From contig NZ_QAGK01000001.1 in NCBI RefSeq assembly GCF_003057885.1, positions 372,001-436,000 of the forward strand: DNA of 64,000 bases, given 5' to 3'. Origin of the DNA: Oceaniglobus ichthyenteri. Its GTDB lineage: Bacteria > Pseudomonadota > Alphaproteobacteria > Rhodobacterales > Rhodobacteraceae. Below are positions 9,041 through 59,974 of the stretch, in pieces; the first letter of the stretch is position 1; the number at the start of each line of letters is the position of its first letter. The notes beneath the pieces are model-generated. The model saw only the letters and a program-made list of their open reading frames with translations. It searched no databases and was not told where the DNA came from. The translations under genes and the position numbers were made by a program.

Positions 9041-9948
9041 GCGGAATGGGCCTGATTTACGGAATGGTGTGCACCGCAAAGGGCGGATCGGGCCAGGATT
9101 CTGTGGGCCCAGGCGGTGTGCGTTGACGGTTCGCACATCACGCCGCCAATCTGAAACACCGCGCTGGCGCGATTGTCCAAAATCGCCCTTGCCTGCGCAA
9201 GCTCTGCGTCACTGACTTGAAACGCCTCTTGAATGTGCATCACCTGTGCCGGGTGAATGGCGGTTTTCGAAACAAAACCGGCGGCAACGTCCTGTGCCAC
9301 CTCACGTCTGAGCGTTTCGATATCGGCAATTATATCAAACACCGGTGCGGCAACCGGATAGCCCGCCGAAATCAACATGGACGACGCCATCGCCAGAACC
9401 CAGGCCAACGGCCCCTCCCACGAGGTGATTCCTGACTGACGGCGCAGCGCCATCGCCGCCAACAAATCGTTTCCGCCCAGCCGGATCGCCGCAATGCGGT
9501 GGCGATCATGGTCGTCAAATGCCTCTTTCAACGCGGTGATACGGCCGGGGTCGAAAAACTGCGCGCTTTCAACCGTGGGCATGATCCGCAAATTTGCCGA
9601 CTTGCCCAGATCCATCCAGGCGGGGGCGGTTTGCGGCAAAATCTTCGGCGCGACGAACCCTTCGATATGCTCGATCCCCGCAAATTCAGCCAGCTCCAGC
9701 GCCATTTCAAGGGACCGGGGCCGCACGAAAACCTGTGTATTGGATACCACAGGCCCTTGGTTCAAAAGCGTTTTCAGCGTTGCAATACCGCGCACCACGT
9801 CATCTTCGGCCAACGCATCCTCAAGACACAGCACAACCGAGGGCGACGGAAAATCAACTTCGCCGCGCAAATAGGCCGGAACGCGGTGATGCACAATCGG
9901 CATATAAAGCGTGGCACCCAGCGCGTAAGATGAAAAATCCCACTTCAT
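9037..9948 (-). CDS. HpcH/HpaI aldolase/citrate lyase beta-like protein of the Ter metabolic module
   Basis: 303 residues with the CitE-type TIM barrel pattern: VVLCLEDALAEDDV, a lysine strand FVAPKILP, MPTVESAQFFDP with the metal-binding Glu, and RLGGNDLLAAMALR. Family members carry out C-C lyase or aldol reactions on acyl-CoA or keto-acid substrates. In Ter gene clusters this type occurs with phosphoribosyltransferases and a HAD phosphatase in a pathway proposed to build a nucleoside-like metabolite (established comparative-genomics proposal, not biochemically settled). One-base overlap with the upstream gene indicates translational coupling. Confidence 0.85.
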   Translation of the reverse strand: MKWDFSSYALGATLYMPIVHHRVPAYLRGEVDFPSPSVVLCLEDALAEDDVVRGIATLKTLLNQGPVVSNTQVFVRPRSLEMALELAEFAGIEHIEGFVAPKILPQTAPAWMDLGKSANLRIMPTVESAQFFDPGRITALKEAFDDHDRHRIAAIRLGGNDLLAAMALRRQSGITSWEGPLAWVLAMASSMLISAGYPVAAPVFDIIADIETLRREVAQDVAAGFVSKTAIHPAQVMHIQEAFQVSDAELAQARAILDNRASAVFQIGGVMCEPSTHTAWAHRILARSALCGAHHSVNQAHSA

Positions 9949-11051
9949 TACGCGACCTTCTCAATCAATGTGACAGCGCGGTACGGCCCGGTAAGGGATG
10001 CATCTTCAACCATATCAATACCATCGGTTCGGCACAAATGAATCAACGCCTCAAGATCGGGATCGTTGAGTGCGCGCAGAAACACCATTTTCGGCCGCCG
10101 CCGCAATACCGCACGGGTGGCTTCGGCGATGCCCGGTTTGATTCGGTTCAGATTGCGCACGTCATATTTGGCGGCAATGGCATTGACCGTTGCAAGGGCG
10201 CGCGTTTGCAACTTCTGGCCACTTACGACGTGCGGATTGGCAACCGGTACATCACGATATTGCGCCATTAGGGTGGTGATCTGATCAACAAATTCCAGTG
10301 ACAGATCGATATCGGCCAAATGATCCACCGAAACAGAGCCGTGAAAATCACCCGGACCAATCACATCGCTGTTCAGGATCGACCGGCTGATCAGTCCGGA
10401 AATATTGGCCCCCAGAATGCCCGACGGAATCAGCCAATCGTCATGGGAGCCGGCCATGGTGGCAAAACCACTGGGGTCGGCAAGAACGGCAAGTTCGGCA
10501 TCGGCGCGCCCGGTAAGGTCGTGCCATGAGTTTTGCAACTCGGTCGCAATCGCGCCTTTTCCTGTCCATCCATCAACAAAGATGATCCCATCCTGCGCGC
10601 GCCGATCAAAAATGAATGCCATCGCATTGCGATCAAGCCCGCGATCGCGAATAATTGAAACGCCAAAGTGGCAGCAGTCGTGCCCCAATGCCGTCAACTC
10701 CCGTTGCAACAAAACGCCATAAGGCACCCCCGCCCGCACCAGCGAACACAGGGTGATTTGCGCACCAAGCGTTCCGCCAACCACCCGGTCAGAAATACGG
10801 CGCGCCAGGGCTGATATTTCCCGCGCGATCCGATCAACACCATTGGCCCGCGCGGTTTGAAAAATTTGCAGATAGCGGGCATCAGGGCGCCGTTCTTGTG
10901 AAATCATCTCGGAATAATGCGCTGTGCCGCTTTGGATCAAACGCTCTTTCAGGGCGATATCGGTTGGGGTAATCTGAACCGGTTTCAGTAGAAACGTCAC
11001 ATCATCCGGATTATAGGATCCGGTGATGACCTGCGGCAGGCCCGCCATCAC
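9948..11051 (-). CDS. StiP-type phosphoribosyltransferase-like protein of the Ter module
   Basis: 367 residues. The central part carries a PRPP-binding loop (DGIIFVDGWTGKGAIATEL) of a type I phosphoribosyltransferase fold. The C-terminal ~80 residues (AIAAKYDVRNLNRIKPGIAEATRAVLRR) resemble the Pelota-like RNA-binding extension reported in this Ter-associated family, often annotated as cysteine protease StiP. Coupled by ATGA overlaps to the HAD gene upstream and by a one-base overlap to the aldolase. The cytoplasmic reaction is probably transfer of a phosphoribosyl group; the base acceptor is unknown. Confidence 0.8.
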   Translation of the reverse strand: MMAGLPQVITGSYNPDDVTFLLKPVQITPTDIALKERLIQSGTAHYSEMISQERRPDARYLQIFQTARANGVDRIAREISALARRISDRVVGGTLGAQITLCSLVRAGVPYGVLLQRELTALGHDCCHFGVSIIRDRGLDRNAMAFIFDRRAQDGIIFVDGWTGKGAIATELQNSWHDLTGRADAELAVLADPSGFATMAGSHDDWLIPSGILGANISGLISRSILNSDVIGPGDFHGSVSVDHLADIDLSLEFVDQITTLMAQYRDVPVANPHVVSGQKLQTRALATVNAIAAKYDVRNLNRIKPGIAEATRAVLRRRPKMVFLRALNDPDLEALIHLCRTDGIDMVEDASLTGPYRAVTLIEKVA

Positions 11052-13835: not shown

Positions 13836-13891
13836 GGTAAATGGTGGGTCGTGAGAGGCTCGAACTCCCGACATCTTCGGTGTAAACGAAG
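13836..13891. repeat. left attachment site (56-bp copy of tRNA-Val 3' part)
   Basis: Identical to 59893-59948. It contains the CCA end, T arm, variable region and the 3' half through the anticodon stem-loop of tRNA-Val, reading leftward. The next base differs (t here, c at 59949), which ends the identity. This copy is the original host 3' end; the prophage supplied the copy that completes the tRNA at the right end. Confidence 0.93.
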
Positions 13892-14357: not shown

Positions 14358-14861
14358 CTAGACAATCAGCAGTCTAACTTCGTCATCGGCGTCGGGAATG
14401 CGTTTCATGCGCGCGTCGGCGGTCACGAAAACGAGGTCTCGCTCCTTTACTTGTGCGCACATCCATAGATCGTTCTCGTCAATGCCGAGCTTTTTGCCTG
14501 TGGCCTTGTCTACCCATTCCTCAATATACTTCGGACGATCCTTTCGCAGAACCTTGGCGAGATACTTTTGCGCGATCCGAGCTTTCAAATCGGCATAGGC
14601 AGCCGCGGTGTGGTGAGTGAGATCTAGGACGGCGTAGGTCCGCGCTTCTGCGAGAATGGCCTCAAGTGCGGGAAGATTTCCCTTACCGATAACTGCCGCG
14701 AGACGTGTTCCGAACGCGAGTTCGGCTAGCGCGACCGTCGAAACGAAGCGTGGCGCTCCGGCTGGCAAGGCGTTCAATGATTGGCTTTTTTCGGCATGGA
14801 GCGGATGCGTCGAATCAAGATAAATCGACAAAACGGTCGTATCGAAGAGATAAGCATCCAT
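14358..14861 (-). CDS. PIN-domain nuclease, third gene of the HTH-methyltransferase-PIN cassette
   Basis: 167 residues from the ATG at 14861; a TTG at 14870 overlapping the methyltransferase stop is an alternative start. PIN landmarks: YLFDTTVLS (Asp7), LAELAFG (Glu47), ENDLWMCAQ (Asp131) and VFVTADARMKRI (Asp149), giving the four-acid metal site for single-stranded nucleic-acid cleavage. A basic insert (KYLAKVLRKDRPKYIEEW) lies between the second and third acids. PIN proteins are usually VapC-type toxins with a small antitoxin gene beside them. Here none is seen; it follows a DNA methyltransferase instead, so an effector role in a defence system is plausible. Confidence 0.85.
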   Translation of the reverse strand: MDAYLFDTTVLSIYLDSTHPLHAEKSQSLNALPAGAPRFVSTVALAELAFGTRLAAVIGKGNLPALEAILAEARTYAVLDLTHHTAAAYADLKARIAQKYLAKVLRKDRPKYIEEWVDKATGKKLGIDENDLWMCAQVKERDLVFVTADARMKRIPDADDEVRLLIV

Positions 14862-14866
14862 CCCAG

Positions 14867-17365
14867 TCAAGCCACATACTTGCGTAGCATCTTAATCTCT
14901 TCATCGGGAAGTGCACGAAAGACCTTGCTGACCCAATCGCCGCTTGCACGGAACCGGCCAGAAATCCGCTCGGCAAGCGTCAATCCCGGCACCGGAAACA
15001 AGTCGTCCCAATGCTTCCATTGATGAGGAATTGGGCGTTCGGCACCACGGAAAAAGTTCAGCAACTGCCGCTCCTGCCGCATGGGCAGATCGTACCCACG
15101 CAGCACGGCGGCATCAATCGCCGCGAGCAGACGCGCAAGATCCGCACTGCTTTCTGCAAAGAGACGACCCTTAGTGAGGATACTCAAATATTCGTGGACA
15201 AGCTCGGGCAATTCCTTCGGAATATAGCTCGGCATCGGAGCCAGCGCGACCACATTTGAACGAAAGCGATCCCTTGGTGAATGAACTGCAAGATAGGCAT
15301 TGACGATCGGGCCGTTCATAACGGCGCTAAAAGCAAGCAGGTGTTCCGGCGTCATGTCGGTGAGCGGCCAAAGTCCGAAGAACTGCTGCGAATAGAGGTG
15401 CGATTCCAGATCAGCGATCGCGCCTACGCGCCAAGGACCTCGGCTTAGCCGTGTCGCATTCATTATTAGCTTCGGCTTCGACCAATCCTGATCATAGCCC
15501 TCACGCAGATTCTCTAGATCAAAGTCGAGCCAAGTAGCTTTAACACCTACAAATTGTTGGAAGCGTCGGGCATTCAGATACCCCCGGCGATATCCTTCCT
15601 TCTCGACATCGCTTGCGGCGAGATCCTGTTCGTAATTCCAGCGAAGCCCCCATCTTGGTTTGAAGACCGTTCCGAGCTGCGGAGCTTTTGCAAGATAGGT
15701 CCACAAATCGTGCAGCGGGGGAATCCAAAGCTCCCCCTTCGGCTGGCCGACTTCCCGAGTGGTCTCGCGTTGAACGGTCGTGCGACCGGTTTTCAGGAAC
15801 TCCGCCCGATCTTGGTCGGAAACTTCCGTTGACCGGATTGTAACATGCGTCGATCCTTCGGCTCGCAGATCGCGCGCGATCAGTGCGGCGGACTCGATGC
15901 TCGATGCCCCAAAAATCCGGTCCGGCAGTTCAACTACCTCGACGAAGCCGTAAAGATCCTCGATGCGGCGACGCTGTTCCGAGAACTGCTTCTCCAGTAT
16001 GAAGGACCGCGGCAATACGAACCCGATGGCGAGCGGCTGCGCATCAATCACCGCGCTGAGCACTGCGATCGCCTTCGTAGGCTTCCGGCTCGCTTCTGGA
16101 TAACGTTCCTTTTCTTCTTGGGTGAACGCCTCGAAAGGAGGGTTGCAGACGATCACATTCTTGCCGATTAGCGCCCTTTCTAACGCACCGTCGACGAGTA
16201 GATCCGCTTCACGGATGTGCCAGCCATTGTGGTTGGGATAGTCAGCAAGGATCAACGAAAGCGTTGCCACCTCGCAGGCGAAAGGATCAATCTCATCACC
16301 CGCGATGTGCTCGATCAGAAAGTTGTGACGCTCTTGATCCGACCACCCCACTGGAAGCAAGTCGCGCAAGTGTCTGAGTGCTGATACTAGAAAGACGCCT
16401 GCACCTGCGCATGGCTCGTAGATCTGGAGATCGATCGGATTATAGCGGTGCAACTCTAGTCGTTGAACGATATATTCAGCCACTTGGCGCGGCGTGCTGT
16501 GCGTCCCGAACAGCTTGCGGGCCTCCGGCGTCACCAGCGTATTCTCATACACAAACGCAAGATCGTCCGAGGAGATATTGGAAAAGTTTATTCCAGCGCA
16601 AAGATGTGCCCATGCCGCACTAAACATTCGCGCCAGTACCGGGTTAGTGCGCCCATCGATTTGTGATAGGCTATAATAACGCTCGATAGCTGTCAAAACC
16701 GAGAACAGATTGTCGGCATTCCACTCCGCCGAGAACGGGTGGCGGCGATCCTGTAGAACCTTAGCGGCCAACAGGCGGAATACCACCCTGAACATGGTTC
16801 TCGCATCGAGCCGACCCCCACCAGGTCCCTTGCGGGCCAGATCGAGCGTCTCGACAAGCAGGCGGTCAAGCTTTAGATGGATTTCCCCTTCAATCGCCGG
16901 CAGAAGTCCTAGGTCGACGAAGTCAAGCTGATGGCCGGCAGCGGGGCCCCCAACCGCCTTTGCACGGTGGATCGCGTCAGGGTGCCAGTCCGCCTGATTG
17001 CGTTCGAATAGTTCGGTGAGCTGGCCGACCGTGATCTTCTCGAGCGCTCGCGGCGGTCTTTCACTGCGAACCTGCCACACCGTGACATCATCGCGGTCGA
17101 TGACGAACAGCAGCGGTGCGCCGAGCGCACGGTACGATTGAACGAGGTCGATGGAGGAACGCCCATCGCTTTCAACCACTCCAAAGGCAGCTGAGCGATA
17201 TGAAGGGGGCGTGCGAGTGAACGCAACTAAGGGGACGGTACGCGTATCGTTGCCTTCGGCAAGCACATCGGCGAACGCATAGTCGCGCACCACGGCTTCT
17301 GCGCGATATCCTGCGCGATGAGCCTCTATGGCGATCTGATTGAGGGCGGTCATGACCGGCCTCAT
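14867..17365 (-). CDS. large Eco57I-like DNA adenine methyltransferase with degenerate N-terminal nuclease-like domain
   Basis: 832 residues. Residues ~20-100 look like the PD-(D/E)XK-type fold at the front of type IIG enzymes (VPLVAFTRT, AAFGVVESDGRSSIDLVQSYRALGAPLLFVIDRDDVTVWQV), but the usual E-x-K is not visible. A helical linker follows. The catalytic domain has GTHSTPRQVAEYIV (288-301), motif I EPCAGAGVF (317-325) and motif IV NPPF (408-411), which mark an N6-adenine or N4-cytosine methyltransferase. The C-terminal 300 residues resemble an Eco57I-type target-recognition region. ATGA overlap with the HTH gene and near-overlap with the PIN gene show one operon. It probably recognises and modifies host DNA, while the PIN protein may supply cleavage. 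Confidence 0.85.
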   Translation of the reverse strand: MRPVMTALNQIAIEAHRAGYRAEAVVRDYAFADVLAEGNDTRTVPLVAFTRTPPSYRSAAFGVVESDGRSSIDLVQSYRALGAPLLFVIDRDDVTVWQVRSERPPRALEKITVGQLTELFERNQADWHPDAIHRAKAVGGPAAGHQLDFVDLGLLPAIEGEIHLKLDRLLVETLDLARKGPGGGRLDARTMFRVVFRLLAAKVLQDRRHPFSAEWNADNLFSVLTAIERYYSLSQIDGRTNPVLARMFSAAWAHLCAGINFSNISSDDLAFVYENTLVTPEARKLFGTHSTPRQVAEYIVQRLELHRYNPIDLQIYEPCAGAGVFLVSALRHLRDLLPVGWSDQERHNFLIEHIAGDEIDPFACEVATLSLILADYPNHNGWHIREADLLVDGALERALIGKNVIVCNPPFEAFTQEEKERYPEASRKPTKAIAVLSAVIDAQPLAIGFVLPRSFILEKQFSEQRRRIEDLYGFVEVVELPDRIFGASSIESAALIARDLRAEGSTHVTIRSTEVSDQDRAEFLKTGRTTVQRETTREVGQPKGELWIPPLHDLWTYLAKAPQLGTVFKPRWGLRWNYEQDLAASDVEKEGYRRGYLNARRFQQFVGVKATWLDFDLENLREGYDQDWSKPKLIMNATRLSRGPWRVGAIADLESHLYSQQFFGLWPLTDMTPEHLLAFSAVMNGPIVNAYLAVHSPRDRFRSNVVALAPMPSYIPKELPELVHEYLSILTKGRLFAESSADLARLLAAIDAAVLRGYDLPMRQERQLLNFFRGAERPIPHQWKHWDDLFPVPGLTLAERISGRFRASGDWVSKVFRALPDEEIKMLRKYVA

Positions 17366-17832
17366 TGCGCGGTACCCGCGCTCGCGATGGGGGTGGGTGG
17401 GAAGAGCAAAGATGGCTGTTCCACATGATCAATTGCCGCAATCAGCTGTTCGCGCAGGTGCACAACAATCGCTCGCAGAGGAATGATAATCAGCGGTTGA
17501 TCGCTGTGCGCTTCCGCCAGTTCTGCCGCGAAGCGCACGCCCGCCTCCTGCAAATTGATGACGACATTCGTACGCTCGAGCACCGGCCACGACGATAGGT
17601 TGCACAGTTCAAACAGAGCTGTCGCGATTGGTGCCAACGCACCAACGCGAACGGAAAGATCAGTGGCAAGCGTGCGAATGACGGACGCGGCAACCACGTC
17701 ACCGGAGCTGAAACAGGGGCTGTGTCCGCGGCCGCGATCAAACGGGACAAGAGCCTTTTTCCAGTGGCGATGTGTCTCAGGTGCGATCGAAACAGCACTC
17801 CTCAACTGACCAGGAGTATATAGAACGGTCAT
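17362..17832 (-). CDS. MerR-like HTH protein, first gene of the defence-like cassette
   Basis: 156 residues from the ATG at 17832; a TTG 57 bases earlier is in frame but I see no ribosome site for either. The N-terminal ~75 residues (LYTPGQLRSAVSIAPETHRHWKKAL, then FSSGDVVAASVIRTLATDL) read as a MerR-type winged helix with the usual spacing between the recognition helix and the wing. The remainder (FELCNLSSWPVLERTNVVINLQ) has no family I recognise. Its stop overlaps the methyltransferase start. It may regulate the cassette or act as its antitoxin-like partner. Confidence 0.75.
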   Translation of the reverse strand: MTVLYTPGQLRSAVSIAPETHRHWKKALVPFDRGRGHSPCFSSGDVVAASVIRTLATDLSVRVGALAPIATALFELCNLSSWPVLERTNVVINLQEAGVRFAAELAEAHSDQPLIIIPLRAIVVHLREQLIAAIDHVEQPSLLFPPTPIASAGTAQ

Positions 17833-18350
17833 TTTTGCGCCATAAATTATTGCTGACCACAAGATGCCTTTTTTATCGACGGTGGGCAAGCCCCATCAGA
17901 GCATGACACCAGCGGGCTGCGCTGTCACTTCGTCCTCTTCGTTTCGACCTTGCTGATTTGCACGGGGTCTGCTGTCTTCCACGACATCAAAGCGAGAGTT
18001 GATACCTGACAGTTCGCTGGAATTTACAAGAGGGACTGTTAGCGTGGCGCTACTGCATTTGCCGTCCTGCCCCACCCGTCATTCTCTTGACCGATATGGT
18101 AGGCTTCTCACGACAGCTTACGCCAAAGGCAGTTCTTTCATTGTTGCTGCGTCTGCCATGCCGCAGCGCCGTCAGGCTGCTGTCCGCCCAATTCATTCCG
18201 CAGTAATGCTGTTGCAGGTTACTTCGGCTTACCAATCTTCACAAACACGGTGGCAGCGCACCGCTCACCCCTTCGATCAATAACGCCAGATCGCGCCACT
18301 GCCATTACGACGCCAGCAGATACCAACCCCCCAAGATAGCGCGCGACATC
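17833..18350. other. 518 bases without an intact gene; contains a holin remnant
   Basis: Apart from the pseudogene fragment at 18219-18287 I see only short frames with no ribosome sites. Upstream of the HTH gene (about 17840-17870, leftward) the sequence is A/T-rich and could hold the cassette promoter. The region looks like a join between separately acquired pieces. Confidence 0.5.
18219..18287 (-). pseudogene. decayed duplicate of the holin 3' end
   Basis: On the minus strand this reads GVIDRRGERCAATVFVKIGK then PK and a stop. The C-terminus of the intact holin at 19530 reads GVIDRLIERYAAEAFAKIGE then SK and a stop. They share 14 of 22 residues, roughly 73 percent of bases over about 70 positions, and the stop position. 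No start or transmembrane part is attached. It indicates that this end of the prophage once lay here and that the small Cys-rich gene and folE were inserted or duplicated between the two copies. Confidence 0.7.
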
Positions 18351-18745: not shown

Positions 18746-19459
18746 ATGCCGGTCGACTCCTCTAACGTAACAGACAATGACGGACCAGACGCGCCAGTTT
18801 CGGATCGCATCCGTGCGCGCCTGACTGAGGCTGGGATACCCTTCAACGCCAATGACAATATCGCCGCTTTCTTACACAAAGGCGACCTGGATGCGCTACG
18901 CGATGAAGTGGCCAAGCACATGCAAGACGTGTTGAGCGCATTGGTAATCGACACCACCCGCGATCACAACACAACCGACACAGCGCGCCGGGTGGCAAAG
19001 ATGTTCGTCGACGAAATATTCGCCGGTCGTTACCGCGCTGCGCCAGATGTGACCGCTTTTCCCAATGTGTCGCGCTTGAATGAGCTGATGATCATCGGGC
19101 CTATCACTGTGCGAAGCACCTGCTCTCATCATCTGTGCCCAATCATGGGGCGCGTCTGGGTGGGGATTATGCCGAATGCCGAATCCGAACTCATCGGATT
19201 GTCGAAATACACGCGTCTCTGCGACTGGATTATGAGCCGCCCACAAATCCAAGAGGAAGCTGTCGTGATGCTAGCCGACGAACTGGAGGCTCGCATCCAT
19301 CCTGACGGGCTGGCCGTAGTGATGGAAGCGGATCACCTCTGCATGCACTGGCGCGGGGTGAAGGACAACCAGTCGATGATGACCAATTCGGTCATGCGCG
19401 GTTGCTTTCTATCAAATTCAGATCTGCGGCGCGAATTCCTGAGCTTGATGAAACGCTGA
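18746..19459 (+). CDS. folE: GTP cyclohydrolase I (prophage-borne)
   Basis: 237 residues. GTP cyclohydrolase I converts GTP to 7,8-dihydroneopterin triphosphate, the entry to folate and also to queuosine and 7-deazaguanine pathways. The zinc site is visible: Cys126, His129 and Cys199 (STCSHHLCP and DHLCMHWRGV), with catalytic His128 and His197. E. coli-type enzymes have C-E-H-H; here the Glu is Ser127. An N-terminal 35-residue extension is rich in Asp/Ser. It is transcribed against the lysis genes and is the only 7-deazaguanine-related gene I find in the prophage (no queD, queE, queC or dpdA). Confidence 0.9.
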   Translation: MPVDSSNVTDNDGPDAPVSDRIRARLTEAGIPFNANDNIAAFLHKGDLDALRDEVAKHMQDVLSALVIDTTRDHNTTDTARRVAKMFVDEIFAGRYRAAPDVTAFPNVSRLNELMIIGPITVRSTCSHHLCPIMGRVWVGIMPNAESELIGLSKYTRLCDWIMSRPQIQEEAVVMLADELEARIHPDGLAVVMEADHLCMHWRGVKDNQSMMTNSVMRGCFLSNSDLRREFLSLMKR

Positions 19460-47408: not shown

Positions 47409-48083
47409 TCAGATCAGTTCTGGCTGGCGATAATCGACCCGATCAAGCCAACGAAACGCAGGCTCGCCGACCCAATCCTTGCGCCAGACGAACCATGCGT
47501 TCCGTTGCGGTGGACTGCCCTCGCCTGTGAAGTCCAGTTTCCAGCGCATCAGATAGCTGTACGAAAACGGTTGATTGTCGAGAATTGCGCCGAGGCCATT
47601 AGCCTTTGCCGCTGGCCAGTCCCAAGACAGCAAAAGGGCGAGGTAATCCCATCCTGGCATGTCAAGGGTGTGCCGCAGCCATCTGCCGTGGCCGTCGCGG
47701 GCATTGACCAGATTGTACGGCGGGTTGGTGATGATTGCCCGGCACCGTGATCGGCGGCATGTGAAATAATCTGCGGTCCAGCTATCAGGGCAGCCACGGT
47801 CGATCAGATCAGATGCACAACACGGGATACCTGCAGAGCGGATTTCACGCACCAGCGCGCCGTCACCACAGGCGGGTTCCCAGACGGACCCGCATTCGCG
47901 TATCCTTTCACCATCGGCAGCGAGCAAAGCGCGGATAGCTTCTGGCTGCCCGGTTGGGTAAAAGTCTGCGTCACGCCGTGCTGCATTTGGCCGATCTTGC
48001 CGGGGCAACAACAGTCCCAACGGCACCCCAAGGTCAGGCTTCAATCTTGTGGCGCGAAACAATGATTTTGCAGATGAAGTCAC
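47409..48083 (-). CDS. phage DNA adenine methyltransferase
   Basis: 224 residues. Motif X-like DFYPTGQPEAIRALL (40-54), motif I WEPACGDGALV (68-78) and motif IV ITNPPYN (118-124) form a compact N6-adenine methyltransferase of the phage Dam type. The C-terminal half (ALLLSWDWPAAKANG, WKLDFTGEGSPPQ) is the target-binding part. No cognate nuclease lies nearby, so it is an orphan enzyme that probably protects phage DNA or adjusts host regulation. The start overlaps the upstream small gene. Confidence 0.85.
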   Translation of the reverse strand: MTSSAKSLFRATRLKPDLGVPLGLLLPRQDRPNAARRDADFYPTGQPEAIRALLAADGERIRECGSVWEPACGDGALVREIRSAGIPCCASDLIDRGCPDSWTADYFTCRRSRCRAIITNPPYNLVNARDGHGRWLRHTLDMPGWDYLALLLSWDWPAAKANGLGAILDNQPFSYSYLMRWKLDFTGEGSPPQRNAWFVWRKDWVGEPAFRWLDRVDYRQPELI

Positions 48084-54431: not shown

Positions 54432-55528
54432 GCGCCATGATCCGCTTCATCCCCGTCGCCGAACTGAACGACCCCCTGACGCTGGCCATCGGCCTGTCTG
54501 GTGGGTCGGGCACCGGCAAGACCTATTCCGCCCTGCTGATGGCGCGGGGCATCGCAGAGGTTACGACTGGCAAGACCGGCGCACCCATCGGTTATGTGGA
54601 CACGGAAAACCGTCGCGCCCTGCATTACAAGCAAGCGTTCCCAGAAATGTGCCATTTCGACATGAAAGCCGTGGACGACGCCGGGAAAATGATCGGCTTT
54701 GGCCCGGAGCGGTGGATTGAAGTGATCGACGCCGCAGAGGCCGCAAATCTGCCAGTGGTGATCTTGGACAGCTTTTCTCACGCTTGGGAGGGCGTTGGCG
54801 GGGTTCTGGACCTGCAAGCGCAGGTGTTGGACCGGCTGACCGGCGGTGACGACAGCAAGAAAAACCAGCGCAGCCAGTTGGCGTGGGCAGAGGTAAAGCC
54901 TCGCTATCGCCGCCTGATCGACCGGATTGTACGCGCCAAATGCTCGATGATTATCTGCACCCGCGCAAAGCCAGTCATGCAGGAGAAATCTGCCAAGACA
55001 GGGTGGAAGGAAGTCAACGCCCGCGCCACAAAAACGCGCCGTCAGGATGTGCCGTGGGATCCGGCGAGCGATGGCGACCTGATGTTTGAAATGACCGCAA
55101 TGGTGATCCTCGACCCATCAGCCCCTGGCTGCCCGGTGCATCAAATCAAAGTCGCCGATCAGTTCAAAGGTCTGCTCGATGCCCGGCGCCCCATGGGCGT
55201 GGAAACAGGGCGCGCCATGGCCGAATGGGCGAAGAGCCAAGGCAGCGGGCAACAGGATAAGGCAGTTCTCGACTCGGCTCGCGAGGCGGCGCGTGGCGGC
55301 AAGGAGGCTTTCACCACCTGGTGGAACGAACACAAAGAGGATCGCGCTTTGGTCAAGACGATACTGGCCGAATGCCAGGATTTGGCGGCGAACGCGGATG
55401 CAGCGAAGGACGAAAGCGAGAGCGACGATCCATTTGCAAACACGGATGACGCCCCACGCCTCACCCCCGAACAAGAAGCCGAAATCCAGCGCGAAATTGA
55501 CGAACGGAACGCGAGGGAGTCGGCGTGA
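54428..55528 (+). CDS. Sak4-like RecA-fold ATPase (AAA_24), recombination mediator
   Basis: 366 residues. Walker A LSGGSGTGKTYSALLMARG (GGSGTGKT at 25-32), Walker B LPVVILDSFSHAWEG, and RAKCSMIICTRAKPV as the sensor strand. C-terminal acidic tail (DAAKDESESDDPFANTDDA). Sak4 proteins are phage single-strand annealing/Rad51-like recombinases working with an exonuclease, here the RecE-like enzyme. The acidic tail resembles SSB- or RecA-type regulatory tails. Confidence 0.85.
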   Translation: MSAMIRFIPVAELNDPLTLAIGLSGGSGTGKTYSALLMARGIAEVTTGKTGAPIGYVDTENRRALHYKQAFPEMCHFDMKAVDDAGKMIGFGPERWIEVIDAAEAANLPVVILDSFSHAWEGVGGVLDLQAQVLDRLTGGDDSKKNQRSQLAWAEVKPRYRRLIDRIVRAKCSMIICTRAKPVMQEKSAKTGWKEVNARATKTRRQDVPWDPASDGDLMFEMTAMVILDPSAPGCPVHQIKVADQFKGLLDARRPMGVETGRAMAEWAKSQGSGQQDKAVLDSAREAARGGKEAFTTWWNEHKEDRALVKTILAECQDLAANADAAKDESESDDPFANTDDAPRLTPEQEAEIQREIDERNARESA

Positions 55529-56082
55529 CCCTGCGCCCGAATGGGACGCTGGTTTTCAAGTGGAACGAGCATGATATCAGAGTTTCCGAAATCCTCTCCC
55601 TGACGGATCAGAAGCCTCTTTTCGGCAGTCGGTCGGGGAAGAACGCAAAATCACACTGGATCGTATTCATGAAACCCGACTTCGATCGGCAGCAAATGGA
55701 CAGAAAGAGGATACCCTCCGATGAGCGAACACGCCCGCATGGTGCAGGATTTCGAAACGTCAGAGAGCCACGCCCACGATCCCGAGGGCCGCTTGCCGCA
55801 TGGATCAGGCATTGTGATCGCGCTGATCGCCAGCATTCCGATACTGCTATTTGTCGGCGGCTTTATCTGGCGTGTGGTGGTGTGATGGCCGAAATTACCG
55901 ACATCACCCGCGAAATGAAACACGCCTGCGCCCTGCGCGAATTGCGCATGCGGCGCAGCACATATCCGAGGTGGGTGCGCGCCAAGAAAATGCGCCAATC
56001 CGAAGCCGACCGCGAAATCGCCGTCATGAAGGCCATCGCTGATGATTACGCCGCGCCGGATCTGTTGGGCGGGGTGGAGTAA
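55525..56082 (+). CDS. possible fused reading frame spanning two or three small genes
   Basis: An open frame of 185 codons begins with a GTG overlapping the Sak4-like stop. The first ~65 residues (MTLRPNGTLVFKWNEHDIRV, SEILSLTDQKPLFGSRSGKN) look like real protein. The next ~55 residues look like the out-of-frame shadow of the small membrane gene at 55721. The last 65 are a separate small gene with its own start at 55885. Either the first gene lost its stop through a small indel near 55720, or the three overlap naturally. Treat the joined product as doubtful. Confidence 0.3.
   Translation: MTLRPNGTLVFKWNEHDIRVSEILSLTDQKPLFGSRSGKNAKSHWIVFMKPDFDRQQMDRKRIPSDERTRPHGAGFRNVREPRPRSRGPLAAWIRHCDRADRQHSDTAICRRLYLACGGVMAEITDITREMKHACALRELRMRRSTYPRWVRAKKMRQSEADREIAVMKAIADDYAAPDLLGGVE
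55721..55885 (+). CDS. small membrane protein overlapping the frame at 55525
   Basis: 54 residues: MSEHARMVQDFETSESHAHD then a membrane helix GSGIVIALIASIPILLFVGG and a short C-terminus. Its ATG follows a CCTCCG stretch without a strong ribosome site, and its stop overlaps the next start as TGATG. The clear transmembrane helix supports it as the coding phase in this stretch. Confidence 0.55.
   Translation: MSEHARMVQDFETSESHAHDPEGRLPHGSGIVIALIASIPILLFVGGFIWRVVV
55885..56082 (+). CDS. small basic phage protein
   Basis: 65 residues: MAEITDITREMKHACALREL then RMRRSTYPRWVRAKKMRQSE and an acidic tail. The phrase Y-P-x-W-V-x-x-x-x-M/K is common in small phage proteins encoded among early genes. 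Coupled at both ends (TGATG and TAATG). Function unknown. Confidence 0.65.
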   Translation: MAEITDITREMKHACALRELRMRRSTYPRWVRAKKMRQSEADREIAVMKAIADDYAAPDLLGGVE

Positions 56083-57638
56083 TGTTCGATGCAGCCCCAG
56101 AAACCGAACTGCCCATGATTATCGACAGCTTTGCCGGTGGCGGTGGGGCCAGCACTGGAATCGAACTGGCGCTTGGGCGCAGCCCCGACGTGGCCATCAA
56201 CCACAACGCCGCCGCGCTTGCACTGCATGCGGTCAATCACCCGGAAACGCTGCACCTCGACAGCAATATCTGGGATGTTGCGCCGCTGGATGTCACGAAG
56301 GGGCGACACGTCGGCCTTTTGTGGGCCAGCCCCGATTGCAAGCATTTCTCCAAAGCCAAAGGCGGCGCGCCGAAAGATCGCAACATTCGGGATCTGGCGT
56401 GGGTTGTGGTCGATTGGGCTGAACAGGTGCGACCCGATGTCATCCTGATGGAAAACGTCGAGGAATTTTTGACATGGGGCCCACTCGGCGAAGACGGGCA
56501 ACCATTGAAGGAGTTTTCGGGAATGACATTTGAACTCTGGGCTAAGCGCCTACGCCGCGCAGGATATCGGGTGCAGTGGCGCGAGCTGCGCGCATGTGAT
56601 TATGGCGCACCCACGATCCGCAAACGGTTCTTCATGGTTGCGCGCCGTGACGGCCGCCCGATTTCGTGGCCAAAACCAACCCACGGCGATCCGAAGTCGC
56701 CCGCGGTAAAGCGCGGCCACCGGTTGCCCTGGCGGACGGCAGCAGAATGCATTGATTGGTCACTGCCCTGCCCGTCTATTTTCGATACCGGCCCCCAGAT
56801 CATGGAAAAGCACGGCCTGCGCGCCGTCCGTCCGCTGGCGAAGAACACCATGGCACGCGTGGCGAGGGGAATGAAAAGATACGTTCTGGACAGCGCAGAT
56901 CCGTTCATCGTGAACATCGCCAACTCCAAAACAACAACGGCAGGCGGACAGCATCACGCATTGGGCGCACCGCTGCTGGCGACCATGCGCAACAGTCAAA
57001 AGCCTTGGCAGGGATGCGATGAACCCACCCACACCATAACGGCGGGCGGCGCCGGGCTGACAACCATCGCCGCATTCATCGCACAGCACCACACCGGAGC
57101 GACCGGGCATGACGCGCGCGACCCGCTTTCGACCGTCGCAGCCACGGGCAGCCATCAAACGCCGATCGCCGCATGGTTCGCGAAATACTATGGCACCGGT
57201 GATGGCGCGCCGACGGGCGACCCGATGCATACCGTGACAGTCAAAGATCGCATGGGACACATGCAAGCCGCACTGTCGGCACCGCCCTTCACCAAGGATC
57301 ACGCCACCCGGGCCCGCGATGTGGCCGACTTCATGCGTGCGCACGAAGCGTGGGATGATCGCGAATTTGTCACGATCAACATTCAGGGCGCGACCTTTGT
57401 GATTGTCGATATCGGGATGCGCATGCTCACGCCACGCGAACTGTTTCACGCCCAAGGGTTTCCTGCCGATTATGTGATCGAGGGGCACTGGACAGAACGC
57501 GACGGAGAATACACCTGGACCCAATTTCCGAAGAACGTCCAGGTTAGCTGCTGTGGAAACAGCGTCTGCCCACCCCTCGCCGAAGCACTGGTGCGGGCAA
57601 ACTGTAAGCACCTGATGAAAGAAAGGATCGCAGCATGA
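56082..57638 (+). CDS. phage DNA (cytosine-5) methyltransferase
   Basis: 518 residues. Motif I IIDSFAGGGGASTGIELA (17-26), motif IV WASPDCKHFSKAKGG with nucleophile Cys86 (S-P-D-C replacing the usual P-P-C-Q), motif VI LMENVEEF (ENV 124-126), motif VIII-like TIRKRFFMVARR (178-189). A long variable region (~200-420) contains repeated DPxHTVT-like units, probably the target-recognition domain. The C-terminal NVQVSCCGNSVCPPLAEALV is motif X. Orphan enzyme in the early operon, likely for protection of phage DNA from restriction. Confidence 0.88.
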   Translation: MFDAAPETELPMIIDSFAGGGGASTGIELALGRSPDVAINHNAAALALHAVNHPETLHLDSNIWDVAPLDVTKGRHVGLLWASPDCKHFSKAKGGAPKDRNIRDLAWVVVDWAEQVRPDVILMENVEEFLTWGPLGEDGQPLKEFSGMTFELWAKRLRRAGYRVQWRELRACDYGAPTIRKRFFMVARRDGRPISWPKPTHGDPKSPAVKRGHRLPWRTAAECIDWSLPCPSIFDTGPQIMEKHGLRAVRPLAKNTMARVARGMKRYVLDSADPFIVNIANSKTTTAGGQHHALGAPLLATMRNSQKPWQGCDEPTHTITAGGAGLTTIAAFIAQHHTGATGHDARDPLSTVAATGSHQTPIAAWFAKYYGTGDGAPTGDPMHTVTVKDRMGHMQAALSAPPFTKDHATRARDVADFMRAHEAWDDREFVTINIQGATFVIVDIGMRMLTPRELFHAQGFPADYVIEGHWTERDGEYTWTQFPKNVQVSCCGNSVCPPLAEALVRANCKHLMKERIAA

Positions 57639-58468: not shown

Positions 58469-58734
58469 GCAACATCCAACACATCCACGTTGCGACAGCT
58501 GCGCAGGTGGCCGAAGCACCGCGCGTGATCGGGTATGTCAGCGCGGCAACCTTGGCACAGCTGCTGGACATCAGCGCAGGCACAGTGGCCGAATGGGTCA
58601 AACAGGGCCACCTGCCCCGCCCTATCAAGATCGGCGGATCGAACCGATGGAAATGGACAGAGATTGAAAAACGGTTCAGCACCGGGTCTAGTGAGCCGGT
58701 TGACCCAATCCTGAAAGCATCCCGTGGCGGCTGA
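58465..58734 (+). CDS. AlpA/MerR-like excisionase candidate
   Basis: 89 residues. IGYVSAATLAQLLDISAGTV followed by AEWVKQGHLPRPIKIGGSNR and WKWTEIEKRF is the winged-helix pattern of AlpA-type and Xis proteins. It directly precedes and overlaps the integrase gene by 11 bases, which is the usual place for an excisionase or recombination directionality factor. Role inferred from context. Confidence 0.8.
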   Translation: MSNIQHIHVATAAQVAEAPRVIGYVSAATLAQLLDISAGTVAEWVKQGHLPRPIKIGGSNRWKWTEIEKRFSTGSSEPVDPILKASRGG

Positions 58735-59884
58735 CCTGACCCTTGAACAATATGTGCAGCGCAAGCGGCGCGGGGCGCGCGAGTATTTTTACTTTCGCGT
58801 GGTGCGTCATGGCGTGGAAACTCGCCTCCCCTTGCCACATCCGTTCAGCGCCGATTATCGCGCGGCCTATGACGCGGCGCATGTGTCGGTTTTTGGCATC
58901 GCACCGAACGAATTTGAAAGCCCCACCGCGATCACCGCATTGATCCGTCAGCACAAAGACAGCGCGCGATATCACAACCTGCCCCGCCCATCGCGCCGGT
59001 TGCGCGATTATGCGCTGGATCTGATGATGGATCGCTGGGGCGCATTTGATGCCACGGCAATCCGCCCGGTGCATGTGCAGGCGCTGTATGACAGCTTGGC
59101 CGATCGGCCTGCCACCGCAAATCGCCGCCTTGATGATATCAGCGCCGTGTTTGGTTGGGGCCGCACGCGCGGCTTTGCCGATGTGAACCCCTGCGCCCGG
59201 ATCGAACGGGTGCAATCCACCGAATCGCGCGAACCGTGGCCCGATGATGCCCTGCGCACCCTGATCGATCAGGGCCAGCCGCATATCCTGCGACCGGCGC
59301 TGGTGGCCGCATACACCGGCCAACGGCGCGGCGATGTCCTGACGCAATTCGCCGATGCCCAGATCGATGGCGGGGTCTGGTATCTGAAACAGTCCAAGAC
59401 CAAAACCGAGGTGCCGGTGCCCCTGCACCCGGTGATCCTGGCAATTGCCGAAACCGAACGGGTTGCGCGCCGGGCCGCCGGCATAGTTTCGCCGCGCCGC
59501 CCCCTGTTACTCAATTCGCGCGGTGAACCTTGGACCGGATCGGGCTATGGCGCGTCCTGGCGCACCGAGTTGATCCGCCTGGGCTTGCGCCCGAACCGCA
59601 ATGACGAATATGCGGCCGATCAGTTTCAGCCGACGTTTCACGGGCTGCGCCACACCAGCGCCACTTTGATCGCCAACACAGTCGCCAGAAACCCCGATTT
59701 GTTTGGTGGAATCGCCCGCGTGAAATCAATGCTGGGCCACCTGACTGAGGCCATGGCCGAACACTATTCCAGGCGCGCTCAGGCGGAACATATGAACACC
59801 GAAACCATGCTGCTGTTACCCGAGATTGGGAACACCGCGCCCCAAATTGGGAACGCTAAAAACGCCGATTTCGCAAGTGACTGA
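58724..59884 (+). CDS. int: tyrosine recombinase integrase, GTG start
   Basis: 386 residues. Catalytic set: Arg201 (AAYTGQRRGDVL), Lys in SKTKTEVPVPL, His306/Arg309 (FHGLRHTSATL), His339 (MLGHL) and Tyr348 (AMAEHYSRRA). The N-terminal ~60 residues are the arm-binding type and ~85-160 the core-binding SAM-like domain. It ends 8 bases before the right 56-bp repeat, so integrase and attachment site move together. It integrates the prophage into the tRNA-Val 3' end. Confidence 0.93.
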   Translation: MAADLTLEQYVQRKRRGAREYFYFRVVRHGVETRLPLPHPFSADYRAAYDAAHVSVFGIAPNEFESPTAITALIRQHKDSARYHNLPRPSRRLRDYALDLMMDRWGAFDATAIRPVHVQALYDSLADRPATANRRLDDISAVFGWGRTRGFADVNPCARIERVQSTESREPWPDDALRTLIDQGQPHILRPALVAAYTGQRRGDVLTQFADAQIDGGVWYLKQSKTKTEVPVPLHPVILAIAETERVARRAAGIVSPRRPLLLNSRGEPWTGSGYGASWRTELIRLGLRPNRNDEYAADQFQPTFHGLRHTSATLIANTVARNPDLFGGIARVKSMLGHLTEAMAEHYSRRAQAEHMNTETMLLLPEIGNTAPQIGNAKNADFASD

Positions 59885-59892
59885 TTTCATTT

Positions 59893-59974
<82 letters not shown>

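Follow-up and report, generated by a model that had tools for sequence, protein, structure and literature searches.

The window analysed here is a stretch of 64,000 nucleotides from Oceaniglobus ichthyenteri (contig NZ_QAGK01000001.1, positions 372,001 to 436,000 of the forward strand), and the subject of this report is a cassette of three minus-strand genes within it, encoding a helix-turn-helix (HTH) protein, a DNA methyltransferase (MTase) of 832 residues and a PIN-domain nuclease. The three open reading frames (ORFs) lie where a first-pass annotation of the sequence had placed them, with Pfam matches for the MTase and the PIN protein, and they are joined as it described: the stop codon of the HTH gene overlaps the start codon of the MTase gene in the letters ATGA at 17362-17365, and the ATG of the PIN gene lies 5 bp past the MTase stop. 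The PIN ORF is open from a TTG at 14870; the ATG at 14861 is the likelier start, because relatives begin MDAYLLD. The parts of the cassette are the following.

17362 to 17832, minus strand: HTH gene, 156 residues, ATG at 17832; MerR/CvkR-type winged-helix regulator, probable autorepressor.
14867 to 17365, minus strand: MTase gene, 832 residues; N-terminal domain (residues 1-150), N6-adenine core, DNA-recognition region and C-terminal tail.
14870 to 15034, minus strand: MTase C-terminal tail, residues 778-832; candidate PIN-binding antitoxin segment.
14358 to 14861, minus strand: PIN-domain nuclease gene, 167 residues from the ATG; candidate RNase toxin.
17846 to 17863, minus strand: putative operator CTTGTGGT-CA-GCAATAAT, a degenerate copy, with 4 mismatches, of the palindrome CTTGTTGT-N2-ACAACAAG.
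17401 to 17418, minus strand: conserved clamp-like motif QPSLLF, HTH codons 139-144, in the disordered C-terminal tail.
14359 to 17893, minus strand: unit of horizontal transfer, the three genes together with some 60 bp of promoter, delimited by DNA identity to two relatives (loci L006 and L008).

The MTase belongs to the N6_Mtase family (PF02384, E 1.6e-14), and the motifs EPxAGAG and NPPF are retained across the MTase alignments. Its AlphaFold2 model (predicted local distance difference test, pLDDT, 88.7) matches the folds of CamA, type I HsdM subunits, MmeI, DrdV and BrxX, with Z scores of 21-25 for CamA, DrdV and MmeI; from this fold and the catalytic motifs, the enzyme is predicted to read and methylate a DNA sequence. 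Divergence is faster in the recognition region than in the core (94% identity in the core of L007 and L009, 69-78% in their recognition regions), as would be expected of restriction-modification (R-M) enzymes that change their DNA specificity. Residues 1-150 (window 16916-17365) form a highly conserved domain, GYR...FADVL...FTQTPPSYRSAAFGVV...RALGAP, which has no relative in PDB or Pfam by sequence. A decayed PD-(D/E)XK nuclease was suspected there from the order of strands; sequence and fold searches settled nothing, and we do not claim it. Pfam and NCBIfam give no match to a nuclease family anywhere within the MTase.

The downstream protein is a PIN domain (PF01850, E 1.4e-9) with an intact acidic active site, the quartet D7, E47, D131 and D149 being invariant in 47 of 47 relatives. 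Its closest NCBIfam model is the tRNA-fMet-specific VapC (E 3e-6, below the cut-off of that model). It is a candidate RNase toxin. In the window and in the PIN loci read, the gene directly upstream of PIN is a large MTase, not a small VapB.

What distinguishes the family is that the third gene is exchangeable and that the end of the MTase changes with it. A search of GTDB genomes with the MTase returned 58 loci, two of them weak, and rhizobial plasmids gave three near-full-length MTase matches. Across the 55 loci on which the count of third genes is based, the gene after the MTase encodes PIN in 48, RES in four (L005, L035, L048, L050) and HNH in three (L052, L055, L057). Pfam bears out these swaps in the members tested: RES (PF08808) scores E 1e-17 to 1e-19 in two of them, in agreement with the alignment, and L052 falls just under the HNH cut-off. 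On the tree of MTase cores, the RES members form one fully supported clade, sister to the PIN member L025; the HNH members require two changes, a count that is less certain since long branches meet there. The core can be aligned to about residue 778, beyond which the tail differs by effector: about 55 residues in the PIN type, with a tryptophan invariant in the 19 aligned, a different helical tail in the HNH type, and a C-terminal extension of about 165 residues in the RES type. All four RES-type extensions match the toxin-binding and/or middle domains of Xre/MbcA/ParS antitoxins (PF09722 and/or PF23125), below the Pfam cut-offs, and the sole PDB match of a profile of these tails is, weakly, the ParS antitoxin (E 1.2). 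When the L050 extension was used as the only query against 385 genomes, it was found in four places in three genomes, each time as a stand-alone antitoxin-like ORF of about 210-350 residues; at least three of these ORFs (L075, L076, L077) are immediately followed by a RES gene that can be recognised as such. The RES-type MTase is thus shown by homology to carry a fused antitoxin domain, and by analogy the tail of the PIN-type MTase is a candidate antitoxin for PIN. The antitoxin that the first-pass annotation held to be absent is therefore probably present as the C-terminus of the MTase itself.

The HTH protein of the window has no Pfam or other family match, although one relative passes the MerR_1 cut-off. 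Its AlphaFold2 model, built on 42 relatives (pLDDT 85), matches the MerR-type CvkR (7xn2) with a Z score of 11.7 over 129 aligned residues (root-mean-square deviation 3.3; next chain Z 8.3), and the family model is predicted to have the winged HTH, beta-strand dimerisation region and C-terminal helix of CvkR; the earlier label "MerR-like" was apt. The gene precedes the MTase in 42 aligned loci. In the first HTH clade, most PIN-type loci have the palindrome CTTGTTGT-N2-ACAACAAG at 11-22 nt upstream of the HTH start, with 0-3 mismatches in 20 of the 27 loci examined against a background of typically 7-8. In RES loci the version is GTGTTG-N5-CAACAC, and AAGCGGG..ATACCCGCTT repeats occur in the second HTH clade, both as read by eye. 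These conserved sites fit a role of the HTH protein as an autorepressor, which would bind the promoter palindrome.

The end of the HTH protein may have a further function. Residues 137-156 are modelled without structure (pLDDT below 50 at 138-140), and the single conserved segment of this tail, Qxx[LMI]x[FL] or QLxLF, occurs in 44 of 46 HTH proteins compared with a mean of 3.6 in shuffled tails; for the strict form the figures are 40 of 46 and 0.7, and L029 has a perfect QLSLF. Since QLxLF is the consensus for binding the bacterial sliding clamp, often found at flexible C-termini (PMC4549789), docking on the clamp through this motif is a serious possibility. The same motif is present in the HTH relatives L064-L067, carried on plasmids of Bradyrhizobium, Mameliella, Rhizobium and Agrobacterium, where they precede larger MTase genes (apparently broken in L067) and a third gene of about 220-237 residues without a Pfam match. 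In L064-L066 this third protein shows a D...(E)xK pattern, PD-(D/E)XK-like as read by eye. These loci are possibly a restriction version of the HTH-MTase chassis, which may then predate the toxin-type effectors.

The cassette moves as a unit. L006 (Brucella pseudogrignonensis) and L008 (a Sphingobium bin), both from other orders, share 88-89% DNA identity with the window cassette, and this identity stops at 14359, no more than a base from the PIN stop, and at 17893/17874, about 60 bp upstream of the HTH gene; the three genes therefore appear to travel together, independently of the prophage in which the window copy resides. The three-gene neighbourhood proposed in the first-pass annotation is indeed conserved in other genomes, both across the loci collected here and in this co-transfer. 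Ratios of nonsynonymous to synonymous substitution (dN/dS) against the two nearest copies are 0.05-0.13 in all three genes, with PIN lowest; the set is thus more than a chance assembly, and its genes are, judged by these ratios, under purifying selection. The PIN subfamily has three matches in 385 Alphaproteobacteria genomes, all three directly after the MTase and nowhere else. The distribution is sporadic: the cassette occurs in two of 293 genomes of the order and in none of the five congeners searched. PIN is truncated about 40 residues in at L042, where HTH and MTase are intact, and at L061, where the N-terminus of the MTase is lost too; in L034 (about 9446-9957) an apparent frameshift splits PIN into two overlapping ORFs beside an intact MTase. 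The apparent absence of PIN from L029 and L036 was an artefact of the ORF filter.

Relatives of the cassette are often found beside other defence genes. Shedu adjoins it in L003, an MmeI-type R-M enzyme and an nSTAND3 ATPase are its neighbours in L006 and a BseRI-like enzyme in L005; other loci have a CBASS cyclase and phospholipase, AbiE, RT-Toprim and type IIG enzymes, as well as integrases and conjugation genes. The defence company anticipated in the first-pass annotation is thus seen for many copies, in a survey that covered cassette loci.

The window copy is cargo of a 46-kb prophage inserted at tRNA-Val in a host genome of 3.9 Mb, and it sits just inside attL, at the end where the first-pass annotation had located it. 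The prophage is delimited by the following features, with endolysin/lysis and tail genes between the two repeats.

13836 to 13891, unstranded: attL, in which the 3' end of tRNA-Val is repeated exactly over 56 bp.
59893 to 59948, unstranded: attR, the other copy of that repeat, which overlaps the intact gene for tRNA-Val at 59899-59974.
58724 to 59884, plus strand: tyrosine integrase of the cassette-bearing prophage (PF00589).

That the cassette is phage-carried holds for this copy and not for the family. No relative turned up in four scans of viral contigs, phage records yielded just one match, of 17% coverage, and the idea of a phage-specific system was dropped; relatives sit on plasmids, integrative elements and chromosomes. 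Adjoining the cassette, the prophage encodes a phage-type GTP cyclohydrolase I (FolE; 18746-19459, plus strand), and no other gene of the whole genome matches PF01227. A search of that genome for FolE2 (PF02649) found none, and PF01227 had no match in the five congeners searched; the prophage thus supplies an enzyme apparently missing from the genus. It also encodes a C5-cytosine methylase (56082-57638, plus strand) and two ORFs matching DNA methyltransferase PHROGs (55525-56082, plus strand; 47409-48083, minus strand).

We favour, with a probability of about 0.55, the reading of the cassette as a methyltransferase-guarded toxin module, a hybrid of R-M and toxin-antitoxin (TA) systems that would act by growth arrest. 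The MerR-type HTH protein would repress the operon from the promoter palindrome and possibly also tether the DNA-sensing MTase to the clamp. The MTase would read and methylate a DNA sequence, and its C-terminal segment, matched to the effector, would keep the downstream toxin inactive, a role based on homology for the RES type and extended to the PIN type. Disturbance of this complex, for which unmethylated invader DNA, an anti-restriction factor of a phage and loss of the cassette are conceivable causes, would release PIN, which would then cut cellular RNA, most likely tRNA in the manner of VapC, stopping both growth and invader. The effector slot could be refilled with RES or HNH, the MTase tail changing each time. 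That L042 keeps its MTase intact though its PIN is truncated counts in favour of this module. Several observations weigh against it. Among 372 genomes, no stand-alone homologue of the PIN-type tail was found (the remaining candidates were chance-level matches, one of them inside a MarR-like ORF), nor does this tail have a relative in the PDB; in a mirror-tree comparison its divergence does not track that of PIN beyond what the core does (partial r 0.08), so that covariation of tail and PIN, showing no excess over other MTase segments, was abandoned as an argument. A distant clade (L057, L059) has no HTH gene, the HNH effectors and PD-(D/E)XK-like third proteins are DNA nucleases that would suit ordinary R-M, and the survey of neighbours, which covers cassette loci with no matched control set, is supporting evidence and not decisive.

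The same cassette might instead be an addiction module and nothing more, a TA pair with its antitoxin fused to the MTase that kills cells losing the mobile element and has no immune role. Its presence on plasmids, integrative elements and a prophage, its compact transfer unit, its operator of autoregulatory type and the homology of the RES-type tail to TA antitoxins would all be at home there; a pure antitoxin, however, needs no large DNA-recognising MTase with a diversifying recognition region, and defence genes are frequent neighbours. We consider this explanation rather unlikely. The first-pass annotation had started from the logic of R-M, with the MTase marking self DNA and PIN, the third protein, cutting unmarked DNA. 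The R-M-like fold of the MTase and its fast-diverging recognition region speak for this, as do the HNH effectors of L052, L055 and L057 and the PD-(D/E)XK-like third genes beside the HTH relatives L064-L066, and these partners suggest that a DNA-cutting version of the cassette exists; some PIN-fold enzymes, moreover, cut DNA. On the same core, however, RES takes the place of PIN in four relatives, accompanied by a toxin-binding antitoxin domain, and the best curated relative of PIN is a tRNA-cutting VapC. RES toxins deplete NAD (PMC11535050), an action that is not explicable by DNA marking and from which such marking cannot shield the cell, and ordinary R-M with PIN as DNase is therefore the less likely course; we regard it as unlikely. 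The abortive, RNA-targeting response that the first-pass annotation offered as an alternative remains the better half of its proposal. An epigenetic regulator of prophage or host, with PIN as an RNA-processing partner and no part in conflict, would account for an operon that combines a methylase with an HTH protein of regulator type and for the position of the window copy inside a prophage, but the cassette moves independently of phages and is sporadic, and exchangeable toxins and a diversifying recognition region would be unusual for regulatory methylases. We consider this very improbable. The toxin module guarded by its methyltransferase also has a more far-reaching form, which we put forward tentatively, as possible though doubtful: a polymorphic immune system in which the MTase sensor and a clamp-docking MerR-type subunit would be the chassis for antitoxin-toxin cartridges (PIN, RES, HNH, perhaps PD-(D/E)XK), the antitoxin being fused to the MTase, and in which the modification state, possibly on newly replicated DNA, would directly control the release of the toxin.

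Among the models of PADLOC, NCBIfam and Pfam there is none that names the three-gene set, and a search of the literature (subscription papers and preprints excepted) found no described MTase-PIN or MTase-RES system, consistent with the first-pass annotation, which could name none. The parts are of known kinds; their combination with an exchangeable effector and a co-exchanged antitoxin tail appears to be new. In family, motifs and modelled fold, the protein is an N6-adenine MTase with a recognition domain, of the type II kind, and it resembles the type IIG/IIL enzymes DrdV and MmeI, BrxX/PglX of BREX and the orphan CamA in its MTase and recognition-domain fold. It differs in having no recognised nuclease domain and in its partner, which is PIN, RES or HNH; in the window, where the partner is PIN, no PD-(D/E)XK, HNH, GIY-YIG or PLD endonuclease lies in or adjoining the MTase. 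The likeness to MAD2 of the methylation-associated defence system (MADS) extends to a score of E 1.4e-12 for the MTase domain against the PADLOC model, but the protein reaches only 17.6 of the 720 bits of the NCBIfam MAD2 cut-off (10.4 of 500 for PglX), the cassette has just three genes, and its operon holds no other gene of BREX, DISARM or MADS. The DefensePredictor systems DS-3 and DS-5, which use PIN, were set aside as different: one consists of a single protein, the other of two, the partner there being DUF5830/AcrIF4-like. The HTH protein resembles CvkR, the MerR-type repressor of a type V-K CRISPR-associated transposon (PMC9938897), over the whole chain; it differs in controlling an MTase-toxin operon and in its extra conserved clamp-like tail. 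With Xre-RES systems (ParST, NatRT) and VapBC, the cassette shares the toxin families and a promoter palindrome, and the RES-type relatives, these only, combine a RES toxin with the matching Xre/MbcA/ParS antitoxin domain. Here, however, the antitoxin (in the RES type) lies within an MTase of about 830-950 residues, and the part played at the operator falls to a distinct regulator of MerR type.

In its logic, the nearest precedent is PrrC, an anticodon nuclease silenced by the linked type I R-M enzyme EcoprrI (PMC2610378), which is not homologous to the cassette. The arrangement proposed here is alike in that an RNase toxin would be silenced by a linked MTase complex and freed when that complex is disturbed. 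PrrC, however, is an ABC-ATPase nuclease unrelated to PIN, and EcoprrI, as a complete type I R-M system, has a DNase of its own, whereas the nuclease of the cassette is a PIN protein and its operon has neither hsdS nor hsdR; conversely, neither an exchangeable effector nor an MTase-fused antitoxin domain has been described for PrrC/EcoprrI. The comparison of R-M with TA systems, as selfish modules that police the cell, is an old one (PMC2701414), and this family appears to merge the two physically, in an MTase bearing the antitoxin for an exchangeable toxin. It offers a concrete, testable model in which a suicide response aimed at RNA or NAD could be licensed by an enzyme that modifies DNA. 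Reading the slot after the MTase is a suggested route to further effectors, and the family would extend the PrrC/EcoprrI idea to a different and modular set of proteins.

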